Under the pieces are notes generated by a model. The model was not told the origin of the DNA and did no database searches. It saw only the letters and a program-made list of their open reading frames with translations. This document shows, in pieces, positions 12,362 through 30,000 of a DNA stretch of 64,000 bases (position 1 is its first letter; every line of letters starts with the position of its first letter). The position numbers and the translations under genes were made by a program. The stretch is from Trichodelitschia bisporula (lineage: Eukaryota; Ascomycota; Dothideomycetes; Phaeotrichales; Phaeotrichaceae), in assembly GCA_010356995.1 (NCBI GenBank), contig ML996705.1:310001-374000 (forward strand), in the 5' to 3' direction.

Positions 12362-15269
12362 ATGATGCAGATTCCATCTCAGTCTTTTTACTCACATTCG
12401 CCAACAGCACTCGGCTACGTTCAGGTACAGAGCGACCACGGTCGATTGTACTATCTTCCGGAACCGCGCCATCGCCGTAGCTACCCTGCGGACCCGTTCT
12501 CATCTGGATACGCGCCACCATCAAGCTACACGCCACCGAATATCTTTCAAGCGCGCACCCTCCGTCCGCATCGCATTCACATTGCGCGCCTCGCGAACAT
12601 CAGCAAGTCGCCAGATCGTCGCAAGAGACGTGCAGGCGGAAAGAAATCGCCTCCGCGAAAGAAGAAAGCGAAGACCAAGCGGAAGCGTCGCTCAGTCTCA
12701 GAGGTCTTCGGAAAGCTGGCGGGATCAGGTGACGGGGTGAAGCGCTTTCTGCGAACTTTGGTCAGGCTGGATAGTCGTGAAAGAGAACGGAGCCGGGAGT
12801 CGGGCCACACCGACAGTCCTGGGTCCCTCGCAGCTGCCACAATCCACCGCCCTACGCGTCCGTCGTCGTGGGCCGCGCCGCACGCCGAAGCGCGTGACGT
12901 GCGGCTCAGCTTCAAGGACCGTCTTCTCCTCCGGCCCGGTTCGGGATTCTGGAGCGAGGCTCGGCGCGAACGGGAGCGAGAGCGGGAACGGGAACGGATG
13001 GAGGCTATCGCGCGCCCGGGCCGACATTCCTTTCAGGGTCCTGTCGGCGGGGCAATGGCCGCTGTTGAAAATGCCTGGGGAGGCTCGACACCAACGCCCG
13101 CGAGTCCTGTGCTAGGCGCCGCCCACAGTCCGTCATCGCCGAGGCTGGACCCTCTGCTGGCAGGGCTCGGTGACGACCGACCAGTTGCGAGTGCCAACGG
13201 CATCTGCGTGTCGATTGCATTGGCAGAGCCATTTTTGTTTTTTCAAGGGTTTGAGCAGGGCGACCATGCTGCGGCGCGCAGTACTGCCATGCTGCGAGGC
13301 CGGATGATTCTGCGCATTACGAAGCCTACGAAGATCAAAGCTGTGACCCTGCGGTTCCGCGGTCGAGCGGTCACAAAATGGCCTGAGGGTACGCTGACTC
13401 GCTTTGCGACCGTTCGCTGCTAATATCACAGGCATACCGCCGAAGAAGACGGAGTTTGAGGAGGTCAACACCAATATGAGCCACACATGGCCCTTCTTCA
13501 ACGCCCAGTTTCCGACGGCCGAGGGCAGCACCGGCGCTGACAATGTTGAGCTGCACCCGAGCACTGACTCCAATGTCGCGCGCAACCGCTCTTCACTGGG
13601 ATCGCTGGAAATCCTCTCACGTAATCCTGCTAGCACTTCGAACCCGAATCTCCGAGAGTCGAAGCGCCTGTCTCTGCAGGTGACGCAGCGCCGGGAACCC
13701 TCCCCAGCACCCAACAACGCCAATGTCGCTCAAAAGGGGTATCGAACGTTCCAAGCCGGCGAATACACTTACAATTTTGAGCTCCCGCTCGACAGTCACC
13801 TTCCGGAGACAATAAATGTCGAGCTCGGCTCCGTCAAGTACGAACTGGAGGCCACAGTCGAGCGCTCCGGCGCCTTCCGTCCTAATCTAGTCGGGACCAA
13901 GGAGGTCAGCGTCGTGCGCATCCCGGCCGAGGGCTCCCTGGAACAAGTGGAGCCTATCGCCATCAGCCGCAACTGGGAAGACCAGCTGCATTACGATATT
14001 GTAATCAGTGGCAAGTCGTTTCCGCTCGGCGCGCAGGTTCCTATCGCGTTTAAACTCACCCCGCTGGCGAAGGTGCAGTGCCACCGGATCAAGGTGTTCG
14101 TTACTGAGAGCGTCGAATACTACGCCAGCAACCGGCGCGTCCACCGCCTCGAGCCCCCGCGCAAGGTACTCTTGTTCGAGAAGCGCGCCGATGCGCCCCC
14201 GACAAGCACGTTTCCCGGAAGCACGATGCGCATTGTATCGGGTGGCGGAGTTCCGTACGACTTGCGCGCCGCGGCGGCCCGCGGCGAGGAGGTACCGGCC
14301 GCTGATTCCAACAACTTGCTCGGCAATCTTGAGCGGGATGCAAACAATGCCGGGCCGACAGAGCTCGAGTTCAGCGTGCAGCTCCCGGGATGCGGCCACA
14401 CTGCGAGTCACCTCGGTGCATGCGGATCATTTTCGAAAGACCGGCCGGAACGGGACAAGAATCTGCGGCTGCACTTCGATACAACGTATGCCAATATCCA
14501 GGTTCACCATTGGATTAAGATTGTGCTGCGTCTCTCACGGCCTGACACCACGGACCCGTCGCGCCGGCGCCACTTTGAGATTTCGATCGACTCGCCCTTC
14601 CATATCCTCGACTGCCGCGCCACACAGGCCAACATATCGCTCCCCGCTTACGAGCGCGGCCCCTCGGACCCACATGCCGTGGCGCTCGCGCGGCTAAACG
14701 GCGAACTCCCGAACGTGGGCGAGGTGGACTCAGATGGTGAAGCCGAGTCTCCGCAGGCTGAAAGCAGCAGCGCCGTGCCCATCCGGAGCCTAACACCGGC
14801 GCGTCCGGCGGCGGCACACATATCGCCGCATTCACAAACGGAAGATGGGATCACAGAGCTAGACTCCTCGATCAGTTCGATGCGGGACTCGCATCCGTCG
14901 TCGGCGCACCAGTCCTCAAGTCGCACGTCGGGATCTAGCTGGCAGAGCCAGATACAGGCGCCGCTCCGTCCGATGCACTTTATCCGCGCACCGTCGTTCA
15001 ATCCACCCGGCTTTGATGAGGAAGAGCCACCGCCGCCGCTGGAGACACCGCCGCCGCGGTATGATTCGATTGTCCAGAGTCCGGGATCGGGGCTTGCGGA
15101 TTACTTTTCGCGGTTGTCGGATGCTGAAGCTGAGAGCGCGGCAGCGGCGTTGGGTGGGTTTGATGGGCTGAGAATTGACCAGGGGATGGGAGATTTTGAT
15201 GATAGTGATGGCGGTGCAAGTACGCCGCGGCAGCGGAGGGGAAGTTTGGAGATTACGACAGGGCAATAA
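12362..15269 (+). CDS. Alpha-arrestin (ART-type ubiquitin-ligase adaptor)
   Basis: Two exons, 12362-13388 and 13432-15269, give 954 residues; the intron is phase 1. The first 250 residues are Arg/Lys/Ser-rich, including a strongly basic stretch at about 85-120, and are probably disordered. The arrestin N-terminal fold follows, with the segments GRMILRITKP and LRFRGRAVTKWP. After an insertion of about 110 residues comes the arrestin C-terminal fold, with motifs such as YEFN-like YTYNFELPL and KGYRTFQAGEY. The tail has a PPxY motif (Pro-Pro-Arg-Tyr, about residues 882-885) suited to binding the WW domains of a Rsp5/HulA ligase. The family selects plasma-membrane transporters for ubiquitination and endocytosis. 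It resembles the Aly1/Aly2 group more than PalF/Rim8, but the exact orthologue is not certain. Confidence 0.85.
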
Positions 15270-17205
15270 TGTGCTCCTTTTTGTAGTTTTTGCGTTCGGC
15301 GTTGCGAGGGACCGGGCCCGTTACCACGGATGGGATTTCTGGCGCCGCATTTCTTTGCATTTGGGCGGCGCTTTGGATATTTGGAGCGCATCGAGGTGTG
15401 CGCAATACCCAGGAACCTCGGCGGAAGGAACAGTGAATAATTTGGATCCGATCATTTGGATGAAACAGTAATGTCTGAGCTATTACCTCGAATCCAAAAA
15501 TGGCATTGCTGCTGCCCGTCTGTCATGAGCTAATTGCACATGCGATCCGCCTCAATTAGGTAGTGGTGGAGATTCTGTAACAAGATAGCGAGCTTGATTA
15601 GCTTCTTTATGAGTAGGAAAGGGCGACTCGGGTGCTAGCTATGGAATCGCAGACCGCATGCGCGGGAAAACAGTCAAACCTGCACCAGAGAGCTTAACGG
15701 CATTTAGCTCGAATTTAACGGAGCGGCGGTGGTCTTTTGATCACCCAAGTTAAATAACAGGAAGGAGAGCCATTACGCATACACCTCCAAAAGCAGAACT
15801 ACGTACCTTAAATCGTACTCTCCTGCCCCTCAGTCCAGCCAGTGACCAGACGTCAATTCTAGCAGACAAATGCCAGTCAAATCAGCTTCCTTAAGCTTGT
15901 TATGAGGTACTTGTGAGAAAATTTGTCGGTTAACTTTAAAGTCCCGGTGGAGTTCATGGAAGAAGCCTCCAGGCTTGGAGGCGTGGCTGGGTCGTAATTT
16001 TTTACGTCTTCCAATCGGTGCGTAAAAGCTGTACGCATGCTGTGTGAATCTCGGAGTTTGCAGGGTATGCGCGGTGGCTTGGTGTTATTAGAGAAATGCC
16101 CAAATTCTTTTGGATCAACACCTTGAACAGGCACCCCAAAATCAGCCTTGGACACGGGGAGGAATCGAAAAATGGTTAAGCCAATAAGATTCTCTTATTC
16201 TCCTCATCCATAACAAGCTTTGAACCGGTTTCCCAGGGAGAATTATCCCACACACACACCCTACCCTCACCCGAACCAGTCTATCATGACTAGAATTCCG
16301 AGTTCCGATTTAACCACGACTAATGGTCAAGCTTCGTCCAAGCTTTGGATAAAAAATTTGCACTATCTTGCCCACAGGTGTACCGGGCAAAATAAAATGT
16401 CGCACTACTCGTCTCATAGAGACAGTTCCAATAAACGAATTTCCATTTCAGTGTACACGCCATTCACAGGGGCCTCACGACTGAAGCTTGTTTTTAAACG
16501 TGTCTTCACACGACCGGAATAACCGCTACAGAGCATAGGCAATTTTACTACTGAACGACATCATTTTCTCCAGGCTCATCGCGACGAATACAAGTGCCAA
16601 ATTACATGTCTGGGGAGCAACTGTAAAGACATGAATTTATCTCAGTCCATTGACGTTGCGTGGTCTGGTTGATCATGTTTTGCTGACATTTAAGGCTTAT
16701 GTGGTTTAAATACTAAGGTTCTCTACTCGATAACACGAATGCAGTGAGATGCCAAACACAATTATACTCATCAGTGGTGTAGGGGTGCTTCACAACTTCA
16801 AGGGTGGCTTTGGAAATTTTGAGGGAGTTATGGTATTGACTAGGGGAGGTGCGCATTGTAAGGTGAGTATAAGGATTTTGGGGAGAATGCCTTATAGGTC
16901 TTGTCATAAATCTCGCCTATTAGATGGAAAAACTGTGACCGAGCTTGCACGTGAAATGCTCCATGGGATAAAGCCAAGAAGAATGTAGGGACCAATTGCT
17001 AGCATTTACTGTCCGGAACGAGACATCCGTAACACGATTGGTGGGGTGGAACCTACACCTTCCCTACAAAAAAATAATCAAGGGGTGGCTGTCGGTCACT
17101 TTTAGTCTTACCGAGTTAGGAGATTGTTTGCCCCCAACAACTCGTCTAATCTAGCCCCCAGCTCCTTCCATTCGAGTAAACTAACTTGGAAGTTTTAACT
17201 ACTTG

Positions 17206-17665
17206 TACTGCGGGCATGCTCCCTGACGTTTTCGTAACTGGCGGACCAGTCAGGGGGCAAAGCTTCTGTCAGACTTAGGGGCTTTCAGGTAGCCAGCCAG
17301 TTCCAGATTGTGGGGGCCTCAGGCATCAAGGCATCAAGTCCAGACCGTCCGGACATTGGCCTTGGCCTGTAGCCTGTGCACATGATGTCTCCTGAAACCG
17401 ACCCGCGCGGGCCGGGTTCCCGATTAGGACTAGCGCGTTTGGTCTTGGCGCTTCTACATACATAAATCCCCTTCTACGTAGATAGCTTACTCTATAACTT
17501 CACAACCACTTCATCTCTCTTATTAGAGAGCTCACCCATCATTATTACCGCACTGCGTGACGTCACCATACAATCCATAGTGCGATAGCTTTTAACAGAA
17601 TCGGTCAGTAAAGCAATCTCTCTCTTTAATTGGTCTGCGAGTGACAAGAACGCCTGCAGTAGAGA
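17206..17665. mobile_element. Fold-back MITE, family B, with enlarged loop
   Basis: The arms at about 17221-17262 and 17615-17656 are inverted copies of each other: GACGTTTTCGTAACTGGC with the ACCAGTCAGG core on the left, and TTAATTGGTCTGCGAG with AACGCC on the right. The ends read TACTGCGGGC and GCCTGCAGTA. Two sister copies at 20.1 and 20.7 kb have only about 40-50 bp between the arms, so about 350 bp here look like an insertion in the loop. Confidence 0.5.
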
Positions 17666-17827
17666 TGGATAGCTCAATTACCATCCGTTAAGGCTCCCAA
17701 AGGTCCATGAGGATGGCAAACTCTAGAGCCAGCTAGCGGGCGACCACAGTACAGTAACTACAAAAAGGACATAATTATTAAAATCATGGATATGCAACGC
17801 GATGGATTTGATGAGATGTGCGACCCC

Positions 17828-18036
17828 ATCCCTTGTACGGCCTAGGTACTGGCCTAGGTACTAGCCCAGGTACTCGTCGCCCACGTACCAGCGATCATGG
17901 GCCAATCAAAGAACTAGGATTTGTTACAGAAACTAAGAAATCTTTACAAAACCAAATTCTAGCTTTTTAATTGGTTCACGATAGCGCGTTCGGGGGCAAC
18001 GAGCACCTGCGCTAGCACCTTGGCCGTACAAGGGAT
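17828..18036. mobile_element. Fold-back MITE, family A, copy 1 (complete)
   Basis: This 209-bp element begins ATCCCTTGTACGGCC and ends GGCCGTACAAGGGAT, a perfect 15-bp terminal inverted repeat. Inside each end are two or three tandem copies of an 11-mer like GGCCCAGGTAC, then CTCGTCGCC. Further in lies an inverted pair around GGCCAATCAAAGAAC and TTTTTAATTGGTTCACGATAG. The whole element can fold on itself. It has no coding capacity. Confidence 0.85.
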
Positions 18037-18921
18037 ATTAACACTACTGACATATGATCATTTTTAAGGTTCTCACTATGGTCCACGCTCATCACCTAGT
18101 GTCAGAAACAAGCCACTAGTACTCTAGTCTGCGAAGGAATACCGGACGCCAACAGGCCTATATGGTTTTTGTTAACGCAACCACCGCCCCTAATTGGTCT
18201 AGGCATCGGGTATCTGACTTCACTTTCAAACTTTTCTGAGCATCAATATCTTCCCGTAGATCGAGCTAGGGAAGCATTTGCGCATGAGTTCATCAAAGTT
18301 TTTTTTTATCAACAGCAATCGTTGTACCTTCTATTAGCACTGAGAGCGATCTGGTGCTTAACGGGCTTATGGAGTTTTGCCTCACCCTGTAGCCCACTGG
18401 AAGCCCTACATGTTAAACTCTGAGAAGCCAGGTATCGTGCTTATTAGCTATATCATTACTAGAAATGGCTCATTGCAATATGCTATCCACCTGATCCTTG
18501 CCTTTGCTCCTAATGGAAGTCCTTCTGTACAACCTAGTCTGACCTCCATTTTTTTTCGGATTCCTCAGTGCGATTCTCACCTTACAGCAGTACCCAGTAT
18601 CGCATTTTCACATGCAAACTAAATTCGTCACACTTTCAACATTGGTGGCTACCCATTTGATGCATGTGGTTCACGCATGCTCTCAAATTATTAGGGCGTA
18701 AATTCACCAAGTCACGCAGGCAGAGATGTGAATTACAGATCAATGTTTTATTAAAACACCTTTTCTATAGCATCCGGCAACAAGAGTTGACAGCCACGGA
18801 GATAAGAAAAGAAAATGCTTAGCCAATGGGCTCTACGTATGACTTGACAAAACCTTTAGGGGGGCACCTATGAATTTTCAAGTAACTCCTGTGCTTCTTG
18901 ATTTAAGTTGGGCTTGACACC

Positions 18922-19130
18922 ATCCCTTGTACGGCCCAGGTACTGGCCCAGGTACTTGTCACACATTAATCTGCCATCATGGACCAATCAAAGAGCTGGC
19001 ATTTAGTTCCGTAAAGATTTTTCTACTTCTGCAACAAATCTTAACTTTTTGACTGGTCAATGATAGCGAATAAGTGGGGTTCGAGTACCTGGGCATGTAC
19101 CTGAGCATGTAACTTGGCTGTACAGGGGAT
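18922..19130. mobile_element. Fold-back MITE, family A, copy 2 (complete)
   Basis: This copy is also 209 bp, with the left end ATCCCTTGTACGGCCC and the right end GGCTGTACAGGGGAT. It has the same subterminal 11-mers and the same inner inverted pair (GACCAATCAAAGAGC and TTTTTGACTGGTCAATGATAG). It is diverged from copy 1 by scattered substitutions but is the same length. Confidence 0.85.
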
Positions 19131-20099
19131 AGGAAAGCTCATTAGCGTTTCTGCTCGCACGCCGTAGAGAAATGCTCATTTACGCAATGCCCCGCTACCG
19201 CACCGCCCGACGCTTGAATTCACAATCATTCCTTTCTAAGAAAACTAATAGATAGCTGAGATACCCCAAAATACGGGGGCACGCGGTACTTGAAAAGAAG
19301 CTAATGCATAAGTTGCTTCCACGTTGTAAACCAATAGGTCCACCATAATAAAGCGGCCATACTAAGCCGCCCATATGCGTACAAACTCTGTCGGCAGATA
19401 CATTGAAGGATAGGGGCCACGCCGAACGAGTTTATTATCCTTTTTGGTGTTGCCACGAGCCGATTTTCTCTACTGAGCCCATGATGGCGCTCATGTTTCT
19501 TATTTGTTTGACGTAGGCAAGGCGGAATGGTTCAGCTCAGGGCTGGGCGTGGGGCTCTTTGATGGGGCACACTGGCAGGGGCGCACAAATCACTGGTTGC
19601 ACAGCATTGGTTTTGCCTGATGTCTAATGGAAGTGTCACTGGCAGAAGCATTGAACCATGCCCCTGTGGCTGATAGAATGCGAGAATGTTCGAGAATAGC
19701 TCAATACATTTAAGTAAGATATGTTCTGGGCAAATCAAAGCATGACAATTCTTTTTCTTCCCAATCCAATGCTATCCTAGCATTAACTGGGAGTAAATGG
19801 GTGCACATGTACACTTAAAATTAGTGTGACGCCCGCTTCCGCTTTTTACAGTGCATTTGGGCGTGGTGGCTGACCCGTCCATGCGGTTAATTACACGTTT
19901 TGCAGCAATGGCTCTGATGGGCCAGGAAGACCTTCGCAGGGACAAGCCTTCTTTGGAGTAACTCAGGGCCAAATTCCGCAGCACCTTCGGGCCGAGGTGG
20001 CCTAGGGTTTTAAGGATGCTTCGAGACCATTGGAAGTTCAAGCCCTTTCAGGGACGGATCGATGCCGGCACTCCTCATGCCTTGTGCTGTCGGAGTCGT

Positions 20100-20228
20100 G
20101 GCGGGCATCTTCGTAATTGGCAAACCAATCAGGGAGCAGAACGCTTCAACGGAATTGCTCCGTAAAAAAGAATCTACCGTCAGATTGGTTTGGTAAACAC
20201 GAGGACTTCAGCAAGGGCCCCTGCAGTA
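20100..20228. mobile_element. Fold-back MITE, family B
   Basis: The left arm has GGCGGGCATCTTCGTAATTGG then AAACCAATCAGGGAGCAG. The right arm has CAGATTGGTTTGGTAAAC and CCCCTGCAGTA. The two arms are inverted relative to each other. The loop is about 45 bp. It is followed 26 bp later by a truncated family A element. Confidence 0.6.
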
Positions 20229-20254
20229 CGAAGGATAAAGTGAGATACTGTCTT

Positions 20255-20390
20255 ATCCCTGATACGGCCCAGGTACACGCCCAGGTACACGCCCAGGTAC
20301 TCGTCGCCCTGGCCTTCACTATAGTGGACCAATCAAAGTGCAATAATTTAGTTCTGCAAAGATTTCTCCCGTTTCCGCAATAAATCCTAG
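20255..20390. mobile_element. Fold-back MITE, family A, copy 3 (right half missing)
   Basis: The left end ATCCCTGATACGGCCC is followed by three tandem 11-mers (GCCCAGGTACAC-like), CTCGTCGCC and the GACCAATCAAAG core. Similarity stops at about the central AATAAATCCTAG, so the right arm is absent. Confidence 0.75.
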
Positions 20391-20720
20391 ATAGAGAACA
20401 GGGCTGAAGAAATCCTTTCGTATTTCTTTTGGGTTGGCTTCCATCGGATGGAGGCTTCTGCACGTCGAGCATAGCATTTTTATTGGTTTTGATACGTAAT
20501 TCTTTTTTTAATCTTCTTAATATGCTTGGGACATTCTGTTTAGCGTACTCATTTAGATGTTCCCATCCGGTCCGATGGTGCGCGAGAAATTTGGAGAACT
20601 CTTCTTTCCTAGAGGAAGATGTATCGGGTGCCTCGTAGTTAATCTGCATCAGAAAGTGTGGATCATATCAATTTTGAAGACTGGGTTCCCTTGTTCGGTA
20701 GCTGTCCTTATTTGTGTCAT

Positions 20721-20849
20721 GGCTGGCGTTTTCCTAACTGGCAGGCTGATGAGGGAACAAAATCTTTTTACTAGCGCCGTTGGGTAAATAAATCTTGCTC
20801 TCTAGTTGGCCTGCTACTACGAGGACGCTAGCGTAGATGCCCGCAGTAT
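20721..20849. mobile_element. Fold-back MITE, family B
   Basis: The left arm GGCTGGCGTTTTCCTAACTG and GCAGGCTGATGAGGGAACA is mirrored by the right arm TCTCTAGTTGGCCTGCTAC with GAGGACGC and CCCGCAGTA. Length and layout match the copy at 20.1 kb. Confidence 0.6.
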
Positions 20850-22266
20850 AAGGGGATAGAGAACAGGTGTCGACAACGTCAGTAACTATTTGGAAGGAAT
20901 TTAGCATCATTTGCTCTTGAGTTCCTCGATTATGTACTTGCTGTGGAAAGACGCAACCAATACTACCTCTATTCCGAACTTCAGTCTGGCACCTCTGGAG
21001 GGACTCTGTAGTATGGAAATGAAAACAAACCCCTGACCGAAGTGGCTTGAAAAAGCCACGATATTATCGACAGTCAGTGAAGTACCTGCTTCTTAACTCT
21101 GTATACATCATCCGGAATTATATCTGAGGCTCTCCTCCCTTGCTCGGCTACGCCAGTCTTGTTTGCTACTATGTTTAAAAACAATGCAAAATTCAGTCCC
21201 ATTTAGAGAACCTCTAGCACTCACTTTCACCAGCCACAAGTTACCAACAAAAAGTATATGATCTGTCATGGTTCTGGCCATACACGGTGTGATACCTCAG
21301 GCCATGATGTGGTCTGGGTGGCAGCACAGTACCGAGGTGACGTACGGGGACTAGCGCAGTCCTGTGACTGGCGCCAAGCCCCCACTGCGGTTATGCTTTT
21401 GCACACCCATCCCTGTATATTGCTTCTCCAACTCTTTATCATCGTCTCGAAGCAATCTATGGTTTTTGCACCGCTCTTCGCTGGCACCGTGACATAATCA
21501 AAGGCGTCACAGTGTACGAGAGCCTTGCTGACGATGTCAGCGTCTATGGGCTTCGCGGTTAGTCTTACATGCGGTAGTTAAGTATTTAGGTTCTTATGGC
21601 GCCTATTAACCAGGATCCCCACTATCAACATCCTGTCCAAGCATTGACGTTAAAGAACCTACCGGCTTTTTTAGGCCTCGGACTCTCTGAAGAACGCTCC
21701 ACCTTCCTAGTTTCTTTATCTAACTTATCAACGAACGGTTGCTTCCTGTTTAATCTGACGTTATAAAACTGCTTACTCAGGCGCTCTTTTTTTGTAGCCA
21801 ATAGGATAGCTCTGTGTCGTCTAAAGCAGGTACCGGTAATCCGGCAATCATAACTGTCAATTATGCAGCCGTAGGTCGCTGCAGCTGCTGGGATCCAGTC
21901 TCATCTCAATTTTTTACTAGCCCGTGCTCAATGTATTGTCCATGCAATCTTTTCTTTCAACGTAATCATAACGAGTCCGGAGACCCGGCAAGGAGAACTG
22001 TTCCAAAGGTCTTTCTTGCTCATTTTCCATACGTACCGGAAAATATTTACGAACACAACATTATCCAGTAAATTCAAAATACCCTTCAAGCCGTCAAATT
22101 ACTCATCAGAGGCGTAACAATAAAATGTAGAACCAGTGAGGCTTCCTTATTCTTTGCCCTTGCACATTTTTCATCATCGGCCCGGGGGTACATCCCAAAA
22201 AGGCATAGAGGCATATTACTTTTCTCATAGAGGCCAGTCATAGCGGCCCTTCTACTGCTGTGGTCT

Positions 22267-22366
22267 AGGTGAGTCCGGAGTGAACCTATCACAAAGCAGA
22301 ATTTCTTGCAGAATCGATTCCGCAAGAGAAACGCACTCTCTGATTAGTCCACTTCGGACTCACTTG
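22267..22366. repeat. Near-perfect 100-bp palindrome (fold-back element C)
   Basis: GTGAGTCCGGAGTGAACC on the left pairs with GGTCCACTTCGGACTCAC-like sequence on the right. The symmetry centres on ATCGAT at about 22315. The inner arms carry AAGCAGAATTTCTTGC and GCAAGAGAAACGCACTCTC. The inner TCTCTGATTAGTCC is like the family B core, so this may be a distant relative. Confidence 0.65.
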
Positions 22367-23105
22367 GACCCTAGCCGGGAATATAGCTCTCGAAGGGGAA
22401 CTGTCTTTATTCACCGGCATCGCATGAGTAAATCGTCATTTCAAATTCAGCCATGCCGATTTTAATGTGATGACCGGAGGGAGGTGCCAAAATTCTTTTC
22501 TATAGCCCGGGCGGCCCTTACATCCCCCCGCAGCTAATGACAGTACTGCCTCAAAACTAAATATTACAAAAGCCTGGCGCGCGACGCTCGGAAAAATGTT
22601 TTACTCTTTGATGCAAGTCATGTGGTACTCATCGTGGAGCGATTTAGGGAGGTAGTTCATAAAGGGCATAATACCCGGGCCTAACCTTCACAAGCTAGCG
22701 TCCGAGCTGGGGTACTAAGACTGACGTATTGTTTGGTGTCCTTCATTCAATCAAATTAAGAGAATAGTCAACGCCCGAAGATTTATGACATCTTGAAGTA
22801 GGCTGTTAAAAGACTGTCTTAAGAATGTCTTCTTCAATATCCCCTTTGTTCTGGCTGCCGCCGAATGTCCAAGTGCGGAGAAAACTATCTTTGTAATAGA
22901 GGCGGCGCAAAAGGAGGCATTTTCGTGACGTCGAGGAGACACGGTACTAGGGTATCAGGAAGCTACTCTGAATTCTCACGCAGCTTGCGCTCGGCGCGTA
23001 TGGCCAGTAGAAAACGAAGAACCCTAGCCATTGCCTCAGCTAGCACCTCGGAATATGAGGGGATAGTCTTGTCAAGAGATTGAAGTCGGATAGTTCGGAA
23101 ACTTT

Positions 23106-23323
23106 ATCTCTTGTACGGCCCAGGTATTGGCCCAATTATACGCCTGGGTACTCGTCCCCTACTTTTCCCCTCTCATGGACCAGTTAAAGAGCTAGGATTT
23201 GTTACAGCAATGGGGAAATATTTATAACCAAATTGTACCTCTTTGATTGGTCTGTGATAGCGAAACGTGGGGGACGAGTACCTGGGCATGTTCCTGGGCC
23301 AGTACCAGGGCCGTACCAACGAC
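23106..23323. mobile_element. Fold-back MITE, family A, copy 4 (right tip diverged)
   Basis: The left end is ATCTCTTGTACGGCCC. The inner pair is GACCAGTTAAAGAGC and CTCTTTGATTGGTCTGTGATAG. The right arm carries GGGGACGAGTACCTGGGC and GGCCGTACCAA, with the last bases no longer matching the terminal repeat. It is slightly longer than the other copies because of small insertions. Confidence 0.8.
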
Positions 23324-23520
23324 ACATCTTATATTTATCTGATCCCATCGTGTGTGGAGATGCTCGCAGCCGGCTAATGACACGCAGGAAGCTTCAACCA
23401 TGCATGGCTCATTGGATTTCCGCTTTCTATTGGCCTATTAGAAATTTTACAGAATGCTCCCATCAATATTGATGAAAAAGTAGTACCGACATTCTGGCAT
23501 TGTTAGGTCATATCTGGATT

Positions 23521-23718
23521 ATCCCTTGTACGGCCCAGGTATTGGCCCAGTTACTCGTCGCCTAGATCCTTACTATCATGGACCGATCAAAGAGCTAAAA
23601 TTGAGTTCTGTAAAGATTTCTCTGTTTTGGTAATAAACCTTAGCTCTTAGACTGATCCATGATAGCGGGTTACGTGGGCGACGAGTACCTAGGCCAGTAC
23701 CTGGACCGTACAAGGGGT
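23521..23718. mobile_element. Fold-back MITE, family A, copy 5 (complete)
   Basis: This 198-bp copy has ends ATCCCTTGTACGGCCC and GGACCGTACAAGGGGT. Arms and core are as in the other copies (GACCGATCAAAGAGC and AGACTGATCCATGATAG). One subterminal 11-mer is missing on the left. It lies 200 bp from copy 4 in the same orientation. Confidence 0.85.
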
Positions 23719-24259
23719 GAAGGGATGTCATCGGTCGACAATTGAATCTACTACCATTCCCATATCGCATGAGTGTATCGCAACTTGAAGTATTGACTTT
23801 ACAGAATTGGATAGGGTGACTGGGGGCAGGCGGCGGGATAGTGGCGCTAAGGATGCCACAGCCGTATCTACATAACGACACCCAGATCACTCCCATAAAA
23901 GAAATTCAAAAGTTAGAGTTCAATCCGTGTAGCATTTAGGCGACGCAGTTGAATAATTCTCATCTTCACTGAGCATTTTGGTATCAATTTTGGTGTGATG
24001 CGTATACCCAAAGACGGTGTAAGTTATGTATATATTCAATTTCTCCTCCGATGCGGTTTCATAGGTCCATGCAGAGGGCTAGTTAAGCTAGCGACTATAA
24101 GGGTGTTCGTGCAAAACCAAAACCTCCACGTAGGAGGAAAACGTCCATCTACAAACCTTAGCCGTGCGATCGAGCTCCGGGCTCCGGCTGGGGGTCTTGG
24201 GTCAAGTTTAGGGGAGGGGAGTGTATCGATACTTGAGGGGAACTACTTAACGCTTTAAA

Positions 24260-25790
24260 CTATCGCTGCCACACTCGCTCGCTTATCCTGGTGTGGTCCG
24301 TTCCGGTGTGGGTCTATATATGGGTGCCGATCTCCTGCGTCTTTAACGTCATTAGCGGTCCGGGCCGGTATTGTAGCCGGCCTGGTTCGTCCCCGGTTGA
24401 GGACGGTGGAGGGTAAGATGTATAGCGTGAGGGAGGGACCGGCCGTCGAGACGGTGGTATATTCGGTAGCTGAGGCGGGGTCGGCGGCGTCGACGTCTAT
24501 CTCGGAGTAGGAGGTGGTAAGCCCGAGTCGGATCGGGGCCTTGCCCTTCTCGGCCCGCTTCGCTTCCGCTTTCTTCTTTCTGTTGTAGGTAACCGGGGTC
24601 TACTTATTTGGGTTAGCTGACTGTCCATGGCCCGGTCCGGGATCGGGTGTTCCAGTAATCGGGCGGTCTCTATGGATGGTCGGGTTCTTAAGCCGGTACG
24701 TCGTTTAAGGCACTTAATGCGCAGCTCCGCGAGCTATTTATGATAGTTAGCCCACTCGGGGCAGGACGCGCGTTATTCTGTGTAGCATATTCGGGCCGTT
24801 GCCGGCTGCGTATATACCGTATATCTTATCCGTTGCATATCCCCCTTATGGGGACAGTCGGCAGCCTAGTATTCACCTGTATAGTAACCGCACCGGGTTT
24901 CGCGTCGGTAGGTGCTCGCGGCGTAGCCTGGCGCGTAATAATTTATATAACGCTTCTTAGATAGGGCGTGGTGGTGTATCGTAACGTCCTACTAGTTACC
25001 GGGTAGCCGGAGGCCGTACCGGACGAGAGCCTCCTATTGTTCCTTCGTTTCCACATAAAAGATGAGGTATGTACGTATTTTCGGATGCCCGGCCGCGTTA
25101 CGTACTCGGGATTACCGGTTGCCGTAAGGCTACCGGATCCGTGTGATCCGTAGTTCCGATTGCCCCGGAACGGTTATAGCTCGTACGAGACGCTTAATAA
25201 GCTCCCGGTTTTGTGCTGTCAGGCCGTGCTTAACTGTATGGGTAATGGGGAAGAAGTACGCGATAACCGGGCAATCCTATAGTTGAATCTTACCGTAGAG
25301 CCGGCTCCGGTAAGCGTCCCTCCTCCGAAGTAAATCCGCAGCCTGATCGGGCCTCTTGAAGTGTACCTTCTATAATCCGCTCTTTAGGCGCCGGGCTGCG
25401 ACCGCTCCTAGTTGTGTTATAATATGCCGTTTAGCTGCGTCATCGGGTATAGCCGCCAGGTCGGGTCCGAGGTGGATGATGACGTCGGCGGTTATCTTAT
25501 TGTGTGCCGGGAGAGGCTTCGGCTTCGGTACCGGTGCCGTGCTATCGATCGGGTTGTTTGCGGCGCGCGGGAAGGCCCCGGCTTGATTGTCGGTGTTAGT
25601 ATTAGCGGGCTGGCTGGCGCGTAGCTCGTTGACCTGCGTCTGGAGCCCTGTAGTTATATTAAGGACTTGACAGAGCGGGTCGGATTACTTTAGCTATAGA
25701 GCTCCGGCTCCGACTCCGGTTCCGGTTCCGGTTCCGTCTCCGGTATAAATCGGGAGCCGTTTAAGCGCGTCCTTAAGGTTGTTAACTAGT
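24260..25790 (-). mobile_element. Decayed LINE ORF1 (Tad1-like, zinc-knuckle), RIP-mutated
   Basis: On the minus strand one frame runs from about 25690 to 24690 with protein-like composition, interrupted by about ten stops. All are TAA or TAG where CAA or CAG would be expected. The N-terminal half is Pro/Asn/Thr-rich, then a folded stretch (DVIIHLGPDLAAIPDDAAKR). Near 24950-24790 come three zinc-knuckle-like groups in which several expected Cys and His codons read as Tyr, ending in RASCPEWANYHK, as in ORF1 of Tad/I-type LINEs. TpA is very common and CpA scarce. These are the marks of repeat-induced point mutation on both strands, although GC is still high. No reverse transcriptase follows. 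A retroelement gag is a less likely alternative. Confidence 0.6.
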
Positions 25791-26569
25791 GCAAATGAAC
25801 GGGATGAACGGTGTCGGAGCGAGCAGGGTATTATCGAGGGATCGAAGCGTAGATTTAATCATGTGGGACGTCAGGGCGTCTCCGGTAGTGTCTTCAGAAG
25901 ATATGGTGGATTCTGAGTTGCTGGATGATTAATCGGAGGTATTATTATTTGACAATGGTGGGGGTTAAAAACTCTGCAGTTGCGGAGATCTTCTACTACC
26001 ACCGCGTCGATGGAGTGCCGGGGCGTTCCCGGATATCATTTGGCTGCTCATAATGAGCTGTCGACGATAGCGACGTCAAATTGAGGGAAAAGTGTCAATT
26101 TCAAGAACTGGCGTTGTGGCCGGTGGCTTTTCTTTTGTGTAAACTATATGAGATTGGGTGGAAGGAAGATCGTTAATTGCGTTTGCATTTTCCAGACGAG
26201 TGAAACTTTCATATTGACTACCTAAAGGGTGACTATCTAAAGTGGCCATCTCAGAAATCTGAGATGTTTGACAGGGCGGGACGCCTCTTACTGTACCAGA
26301 CCTACCAAATCGCCCGTCGCTCTCTCAGAGTTCACGCTGCATAATGAGAAAGACGAAGTTGGACATGGGGCAGGGACAGAAATTAACCTTTACGCGAAGG
26401 CCGTCAAATCCTTTTGTAAAACGGTTGACATAACCGCTCTTGCATCCGTGCTCCCCAAATCCTGCCGGAATCGGACCATATAGACCGCTTCCCGTACTTC
26501 GTCTTCCCCGCGGTTCTCTTCCTCGCACCGCTGGGGTGGGTATAAGCTGCGGTTGAAATGAGTCTGGGT

Positions 26570-26688
26570 ACTAGGGCTGACGCTGAATGACGGACTAATC
26601 GGGGAGCAGATTTCATTTTGAATATATTCTGTAAGAAGGTCTGCTTTCTGATTAGACCGCTAATAAGCGTGAGCCCAGAGTGAGCCCC
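26570..26688. repeat. Imperfect palindrome (fold-back element, family B-like)
   Basis: GGGCTGACGCTG and GACGGACTAATCGGGGAGCA on the left pair with TTCTGATTAGACCGC and AGCGTGAGCCC on the right, centred on AATATATT at about 26625. The core resembles the ACCAATCAGGGAGCAG of family B. Confidence 0.55.
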
Positions 26689-27004
26689 AACCCCAAGACT
26701 CTGTCGAACCCCAGTTTGAGCCCCTGCCGTACAATGGATACGTCGTCAAACTCCATCAGGGAATTTTTACACAGATTCCCCCAACGCCTGAAACACCCAC
26801 CACATGGCTCATCTCAATGGAGCGATTTAATAATCAATTGTGGAAAAACCCCCGCGTCGCATGAGCTCCACCTACTGCAATGCTGACTTCTAATTTGATA
26901 TGATCTTATTGCCAAGGCCCTTTGGCTAGCGTTAGGGCCCACCAAAATTCCAGTTAAGGTTAGAATCTCGGTGCGCTCATGCGATGTAGGTATTCCTGCA
27001 GGAT

Positions 27005-30000
27005 CTATGGCTCATTCCCTGCGCTCCGCTCTTTGATCTTCTCCAGAACCGAACCCATCCCATCCTGTAATCCTGTAGTGACCTGTCTGTGGTAATTCTA
27101 CGGCCATTTGTATCTAGTTGTGAAAGGGTATGCAACGGTGCTGGACTCTTCGCCATGACTTGGCGGTTTGGCCTCCTAATATCACTTACCCGCTGGCCAG
27201 AGGCGTTGCACCCGCTGTTTGATCTTTCTCCCCTGAACCAGGTACAGCCACGTGCAGAAGAACACCATGGCGAAGTTGAAGATGATGTATGCCCAAAATA
27301 TGCCGTAGTCACGCCAAACATTCTTCCAAAAGACGTTGAAGCTCGCAGCCTTCCTACGTCAGCACTTCTTTTATAGCCGGACGAGGTGAACTTACGAATT
27401 GATCTCCATTTGCATACTGGCAAAAACCACATTCACCGTTTGGCAATGTCACAACATACCCTCCTGCTTTTTGCACGTATTGCTGCGTATATGAGTTGCA
27501 GGTCTGGCCAGGAGGCGCGCTAAAGACAGCAAGCTCAACCTGATCGCAGCGGACAGGAATCTCATGCACAATGAGCGCCAGCATGCCTTCAAAGAGGTAG
27601 CGGAACGGCGAAAGATGGTACATCCAGTGCCAGAACTTGATCATGGCTGCGAGAGGAACAACGACCCCGCAGAACGAGATGACGAATAGGAAGAATAGCG
27701 GTACAAGAATTGAGGCGAGCAGATCATTCGGGGAGAAGGACGCGATGGCCTGCCCGAATCCAAGGTAGAAGAGCTCAAACACTTGGATAAACATCCAGAT
27801 GACGGCAGCTCGATATGTCCCGCGGGGGAAAGAGGGCGCCCAGTACCAACAGGCCCAGTACACGGTGCCCGCGACAGCGCGGTAGGGAATTTCGGAAACG
27901 ATCGCGCCGGTTGTAAATGCAATCCAGGAATATATTTTCGCCTTCGCTTCGCGCGACTCATAAATGCCCCTTGCGTGCAAGAAGCGCGGCTGCAGCTGTT
28001 GGATGAGTGGCGGGCTGATGGTTAGCGTCATAAAGATGCTAAAGACGTGACTCTGCATGTCGATTTGGCTATGTCCGAGGTTCCAGAAGGTGAAGCCGTT
28101 GAACAGGCCGGTAAAAACATGCAGCATAAACATGCCTATGACATATTTGGGGCTGCGCCACATGGCAGTGAATGACCGATGCACGACTGCAAGCACCTGT
28201 GTAGACAAGGGCATCGCGTACTCGCGGTCATCCTTTGTGTGATCAGCTGCTGAAGCATCGTGCCGCGACTTCACGATGTGATAGATCTCTTCTGTCAGGG
28301 CGGCATTCTCTTCAGAGTTGCTCCATACTTCGCCCCAGTCTTTGCCCTTGTAATCGGGGTTGCCGGCGCCGATGACATCAAGCATGTGTCTGAGCAGTGT
28401 TAATTTACAGAACCCATGAAGAAGGGTAAAGCTTACTCCGCAGGGTTCGCATGTGAAGGACACTTCTTTCCTCCATTCCTCTCAAAATACTCGAGCAGCG
28501 TGCGACTATCTGGCCCAAGGTCGCCAAAATATACCGTGCGGCCTCCAGACTCAAGCAGCAGCAATCGGTCAAATTCTTCGAAGAGAATGCTAGATGGCTG
28601 GTGAATGGTGCAGAGGATCGCCTGGCCAGCATCCGCGAGCTTGCGGAGAAACCGTACAATGTTAAACGCAGCGCCAGAGTCAAGGCCAGAGGTCGGCTCG
28701 TCCAAAAACATCAGGAGCTCGGGCTTGCTCGCAAGCTCCACGCCAATCGTCAGGCGTTTGCGCTGTTCCTGGTTGAGGCCTTCGCCAGGTGTCCCGATAA
28801 CGGCACCTGCGATACTTCTCATCTCGAGCAAGTCAATAATCTTCTCGCAATAATCGTACTTTTCCTGCAGAGGCACCTCGGGTGGCTGTCTAAGCTTTGC
28901 GGAGAACCGTAGAGCCTCGCGTACTGTGGCGGTGGGTTCATGAACGTCTTGCTGTTCTGCAAACCCCGATGATCTCTGGAACGAGCGCGGCAGCGGCCGG
29001 CCATCGACCAAAAAGTCTCCGGTGACCGTTCCGACCCGGATGCGCTGTGCAAGTGCATTGAGGAGAGTAGTTTTGCCAGCTCCTGAAGCACCCTGCTCAG
29101 GTCAGAAAGAACGTCCGAGAGAGCAGAACATACCATGAGGGCGGTCAGCTTTCCGGGCTGCACATAGCCCTGAACATGCTGCAGAAGCATGCGCTCCCCG
29201 CCTTGATAGGGGATGGTGTAGCAGATGTCCTGGAACGTGAGGACCGACTCGTTTTTGGCGAGCCCCTCTGTAGGATCTTTTGTCTCCTCGTTTGCATTTC
29301 GCGAATCGACATTCCCTTCCACAGTCTCCTGCTTTTCACCAGACTCCTCATCGCTTGGAGATTGGTGCTCCAACGACCGCTCGACGTCCAGCGCCTGGCC
29401 ACGCTCGTAAACGACAACTCCTCCGCCTCCTTTATTCGGTTTCTGGAGTTCCATCCCCAAGGCTGTGAGGGCGACGAAAAAGCCGAAGAAGGCGCAGATG
29501 AACCCAAAATTGCGCCACAGGTGCCCTCTCGAGTAGCCAAATGCCGTCTTGATGTAATCTGAGCCGCGAACAACGTTTGAGCCTGGATTTGATCCTGCTA
29601 AAGCACAGCTTTGGTACCGCGGCGATGCATTAGGGACCATTGGGACGAGGTATGGAGGCTCGCACTGGATGTCGAGACTGTAAAACTCGTTCGCCATCAA
29701 AGCTTCAAACCCATACTGGACTGGGTTTATCCACCTTAGCCACGAGAACCACGGATGCATCTTCCTCGGCGGGATGAGATATCCAGTGTAGACAACAAGC
29801 GCCTGAATGGCGACGCCTGTGACTCTCGTTGCGGCGTCCAGCGATCCCATAAGTGCTCCGATGGACCTGAAAAAGGCATACATGGTCATGGTAACGATGA
29901 AAAGAAAGAGGTACGCAATGAAGAATTGTGATGCGGTCCGCTGTAGGTTAGCCATAAAGTAGACGATGACCAGGAATATTGTAACCTGGACCAGGACAAG

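Follow-up and report, generated by a model that had tools for sequence, protein, structure and literature searches.

The window, a stretch of 64,000 nucleotides of the fungus Trichodelitschia bisporula (bases 310001-374000 of contig C19), carries a group of short fold-back elements between positions 17828 and 23718. This raises the question of what kind of element they are and why they lie together at this place.

Fold-back elements in the window

Five whole copies of a miniature inverted-repeat transposable element (MITE) with common ends had been proposed in an earlier note on this DNA. The shared ends proved real: with up to two mismatches, the 15-bp end was found nine times in the window (0.08 matches expected from shuffles), and eight of the nine matches are ends of MITE copies, the ninth (position 26725) being isolated. 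Four of the five elements, all on the plus strand, are whole fold-backs with arm identities of 70-76%, namely copy 1 (17828..18036; profile score 200.6 bits, arm identity 0.76), copy 2 (18922..19130; 187.0 bits, 0.71), copy 4 (23106..23322; 181.6 bits, 0.72; right end decayed) and copy 5 (23521..23718; 176.2 bits, 0.70). Copy 3 (20255..20399, plus strand; 96.3 bits, 0.40) comprises the left part only.

The subterminal tandem unit, previously described as an 11-mer, has a true period of 12 bp (GGCCCAGGTACN). Its number does vary between copies as stated before, with two or three units per scorable arm: 3 and 2 in the arms of copy 1, 2 and 3 in copy 2, 3 and 3 in copy 4, and 2 and 2 in copy 5. 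The left arm of copy 3 has three units, and unit scoring detected none in its right arm. With up to one mismatch, GGCCCAGGTAC occurs 19 times in the window compared to 0.90 expected, and 17 of the 19 matches are inside MITE copies. Ends like GCAGTATAAGGGGATAG are present at 20842-20859, 23049-23066 and 17202-17236 (two direct, one inverted); given their likeness to the MITE end, they are possibly part of a related fold-back family.

Confinement to one cluster per contig

The search for further copies that the earlier note had suggested was extended to the whole assembly (25.65 Mb, 30 contigs, C1-C30). The 24-bp end, at up to three mismatches, yielded 95 matches and the reversed control none. 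All 95 fall into a single cluster per contig, each at most 13.5 kb long, on 21 of the 30 contigs (C1-C13, C16, C18-C20, C22-C25). No match at this threshold was obtained on C14, C15, C17 (785-818 kb each), C21 (517 kb) and the small contigs C26-C30. An inner 22-mer gave the same picture, as 45 of 45 matches are within these clusters; 19 of the 21 contigs are represented, and the control had no match. Two DNA queries produced at least 75 and at least 88 alignments, and among the matches listed all lie in the same clusters. The cluster spans total about 114 kb, or 0.4% of the assembly, the widest being that on C16 (11.1-24.5 kb). Under random placement by length, the probability of 21 clusters falling on 21 different contigs is 1.4e-6.

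Sampled contig ends (40 of 60, 500 bases each, five of them all N) had no MITE match. No TTAGGG array was found, so the contigs may be less than whole chromosomes. By eye, the letters at the contig ends L059, L062 and L067 look like fungal WD40-repeat genes coding for NLR-type proteins.

Further, a profile search (matches above E 1e-5 excluded) recovered 66 copies in 16 clusters. Of these, 47 are near-full (170-224 bp) and were used as a set, 19 short or low-scoring copies being excluded.

AT-rich troughs holding the clusters

The window copies lie in an AT-rich, gene-poor trough at 15401..24100, delimited by GC segmentation and regarded as the putative centromere of contig C19. Its GC content is 0.462 as compared to 0.552 outside (window 8001-32000), and nowhere else in the window does 2-kb GC drop below 0.50. 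No stop-to-stop ORF of 200 or more amino acids is present from 15266 to 27357. When eight window ORFs were scanned against Pfam, seven matched families including CAND1, arrestin, PDR ABC transporter, PAP1-type bZIP and importin (for the importin ORF, the nearest relative with a solved structure bears the name Kap123), and one had no match.

Sixteen of the 21 clusters were read, and GC was low in all of them. Segmentation of the ten with both borders visible delimited troughs of 8.7-13.9 kb with a GC content of 0.459-0.481 inside versus 0.530-0.600 outside; GC was examined in the window and the cluster regions read, so that similar troughs elsewhere on the contigs are possible. All 44 MITE copies of these ten regions are inside the troughs. 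Their positions are indistinguishable from uniform, and a central placement was discarded accordingly (P 0.30). Where flanks were read, their TpA/ApT ratio is 0.59-0.78, as against 0.84-1.06 for the troughs. Long ORFs are sparse in the clusters, though present: stop-to-stop ORFs of 203-253 amino acids occur in or beside those on C1, C4, C6 and C8. The trough on C12 extends into Ns.

Other repeats accompany the MITEs. A second family of about 477 bp was noticed beside an ATT microsatellite at L011:8711-9187 (C1:1628711-1629187). It has 33 rows in the genome, with 89-97% identity across rows other than itself; 25 are in or near MITE clusters and eight far away, one contig with this family being C15, which has no MITE cluster. 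None was found in the window trough. Window positions 21324-21495 are 94% identical to the start of C27 (L044:327-500) and also match regions of C6 and C9 (94-95%); judged by these identities, the segment is another, younger trough repeat.

We consider it probable (about 0.7) that the elements are an old, TA-inserting, Tc1/mariner-like, non-autonomous MITE family whose copies are restricted to putative regional centromeres. The MITE clusters would then be the regional centromeres, one AT-rich and gene-poor locus on each of 21 contigs, in a genome that encodes a CENP-C domain. The cluster-less contigs C14, C15, C17, C21 and C26-C30 count against the centromere assignment, as do the second repeat family on C15 and the ORFs of 203-253 amino acids at the C1, C4, C6 and C8 clusters. 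The centromeres of the cluster-less contigs may lie in gaps or have diverged.

Four of the contigs without a cluster are large, and this would also be expected if an ordinary old MITE family survived only in AT-rich transposon graveyards that are not centromeres. The gathering of other repeats in the troughs and their raised TpA/ApT ratio fit such graveyards, and so do the age and the base changes of the copies. The 47 near-full copies match their consensus at an average identity of 0.79 (range 0.67-0.90) and are hence old. C-to-T changes affect 22.7% of CpA sites and 10-12% of CpC, CpT and CpG sites; the complementary change is found at 16.5% of TpG versus about 8% of GpG and ApG sites. This is a mild RIP-like bias, and DNA-methylase domains are encoded in the genome. 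Strong RIP was rejected, since TpA/ApT is raised yet the (CA+TG)/(AC+GT) index shows no decrease. The restriction to a single cluster on each of the 21 contigs, improbable under random placement, speaks against graveyards, which we regard as an unlikely explanation. Nor does a general loss of repeats outside the troughs explain the confinement, because two other trough families are also found elsewhere.

Anatomy, conservation and insertion mode

Each arm starts with TCCCTTGTAC and continues with the 12-bp units in tandem; a linker then leads to a conserved 22-bp block, and the centre of the element is AT-rich. Among the 94 arms of the 47 near-full copies, 13 have one unit, 33 two, 36 three, five four and one five, with six arms unscored. 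The arm alignment comprised 24 of 40 eligible elements (48 arms). Conservation is mirrored between the two arms (Spearman 0.71 over 80 arm pairs), with means of 0.80-0.90 for tandem units, ends and inner block compared to 0.66-0.76 for linkers and centre. Arm identity is 0.747 within and 0.719 between elements, a difference reached by none of 2000 shuffles; subfamily structure is enough to account for this slightly better match within elements.

Mirrored conservation of this strength, in a family confined to putative centromeres, might suggest a functional centromere repeat whose copies were kept by selection for protein binding to the 12-bp units or the inner block, as CENP-B binds its box. 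Recognition by a transposase before insertion, however, predicts mirrored conservation as well. Changes restricted to single copies show no preference for variable over conserved blocks (0.011-0.022 per copy-site) and thus give no sign of selection after insertion, so that selection on the copies is not supported; the uniform positions of the copies in the troughs also speak against a functional repeat, which we hold to be improbable. The inner block was further considered as a CCAAT (NF-Y) site and rejected, many arms reading CCAGT or CCAATT.

Returning to the proposed MITE family of putative centromeres, we looked at the bases next to the 47 near-full copies in the 16 clusters. A T precedes 39 of them, an A follows 39, and 31 have both. 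Direct-repeat identity beside the copies reaches 0.77 at 2 bp but falls to 0.23-0.29 at 3-10 bp, i.e. duplications longer than 2 bp are at chance level only. The target duplication suspected earlier is therefore indeed 2 bp long, but it is TA and not AT. The outermost base of the element is T at 74 of 87 well-aligned ends. The AT seen beside CCCTTG consists of the A of the target and the first T of the element. The window alone could not settle this point because none of its whole copies has both the flanking T and A (copies 1 and 2 are flanked by C and A).

Comparison of the 94 flanks revealed four similar pairs, each over 21-33 bases. Together, the TA target, the mostly unrelated flanks and the 79% identity identify the copies as separate old insertions rather than a satellite. 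They have the character of cut-and-paste insertions at TA. Although the copies are common to these loci only, their sharp ends at TA, the few and short flank similarities and their dispersed, not head-to-tail, arrangement make it hardly credible that they are satellite DNA of centromeres, or segmental duplicates, which recombination between centromeres rather than transposition has spread.

The description as a MITE-like fold-back was thus upheld for the family: its members are short, non-coding and numerous, have terminal inverted repeats and a target duplication, and occupy independent sites. The TA duplication is that of the Tc1/mariner superfamily; the 9-bp duplication of Foldback elements is missing, as identity is 0.26 at 9 bp. 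TA dinucleotides number 63 per kb in the window trough and 34 per kb in the rest of the window, and this roughly twofold difference is too small to cause a distribution of 95 to 0.

Search for an autonomous partner

An autonomous element with the same ends, which the earlier note had advised to look for, was not found among the longer same-end elements or around the DDE_1 match. Two longer elements share the MITE ends, C10:330283-332065 and C3:982876-983778. The latter was discarded as autonomous partner, because its inner part is found also without MITE ends (10 of 127 rows, at three places: C17:718.8-719.4k, C1:876.9-877.6k and C1:886.9-887.4k); it was read as a MITE into which another fold-back element has inserted. 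By similarity to this case, the C10 element was read as an interrupted MITE and likewise discarded. Its fold-back insert also carries the 477-bp second family.

The single DDE_1 match found in the genome (C23:90264-90599; L076) lies in an open frame of 300 amino acids that looks like a truncated pogo/Fot1-type transposase. It is located about 35 kb from the MITE cluster of that contig, and no MITE end was detected within 1.5 kb of it (3.3 kb around, three mismatches allowed). In addition, one weak DDE_3 match was obtained at C4:1482400.

Comparison with known systems

Tc1/mariner-type MITEs such as mimp, Guest and Stowaway are non-coding elements of about 200 bp with terminal inverted repeats and a TA target, as is the family described here. 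To our knowledge, its end is unlike those of mimp, Guest and Stowaway; it further differs from them by its confinement to one locus per contig and in that no partner transposase was found. Long inverted arms with subterminal direct repeats are likewise a feature of Drosophila Foldback elements and of IR/DR Tc1 elements. Foldback elements, however, make a 9-bp target duplication instead of the 2 bp seen here, and IR/DR Tc1 elements either encode a known transposase or rely on one, whereas none was identified for the family described here. The 13-mer CCCTTGTACGGCC was not mentioned in the literature searched. An exact 19-mer had no match across bacterial and archaeal genomes, which has little meaning for a fungal sequence.

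In Verticillium dahliae, the retroelement VdLTRE9 marks every centromere, with 204 of its 215 matches in the eight centromeres, which were proven by CenH3 ChIP (about 94-187 kb, 74-78% AT) (PMC7482064). The likeness lies in old copies of one transposon family in AT-rich, gene-poor regions, which are proven centromeres there and putative ones here; VdLTRE9, however, is an LTR retroelement of about 7.3 kb (PMC7482064), whereas the family in T. bisporula consists of fold-backs of about 200 bp in troughs of 9-14 kb with 52-54% AT. For Dothistroma septosporum, single repeat-rich regions have been put forward as the centromeres (PMC3510045). A 196-bp MITE lies beside the yeast centromere CEN2 of Dekkera bruxellensis; it differs by 5-bp direct repeats and 51 copies at different genomic loci, and is missing beside CEN2 in some strains (PMC4999066). 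Small fold-back MITEs are described for Epichloe festucae, a filamentous ascomycete that likewise has AT-rich blocks and weak RIP, with gene-rich DNA as their main location (PMC6218096). A centromere-confined MITE family was not found in the literature searched on fungal MITEs, centromeres and centromere-specific DNA transposons.

Implications of the confinement

With all 95 end matches of the genome in a single AT-rich cluster on each contig concerned, the window copies take on another meaning than that of a local repeat group. A transposase acting in trans would have recognised the MITE ends and the subterminal repeats, and confinement would result if the element inserted preferentially into centromeric chromatin or if its copies survived nowhere else. 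Both are compatible with the distribution, and the family is old enough to allow for survival. It is conceivable, though we consider it doubtful, that the family homed to centromeric chromatin by cut-and-paste transposition. All detected copies would then have been placed in the centromeres by its transposase, perhaps together with a factor that reads the tandem 12-mers and is CENP-B-like or linked to the kinetochore. If true, such a homing family would correspond, among DNA transposons, to the retroelements that home to centromeres.

The candidate centromeres are short (9-14 kb) and their AT content is only moderate, which lets them largely assemble. As a possible centromere marker, the repeat provides a sequence tag for these candidates in the fungus, and the family offers a test case for whether cut-and-paste elements seek out centromeric chromatin or persist nowhere else.
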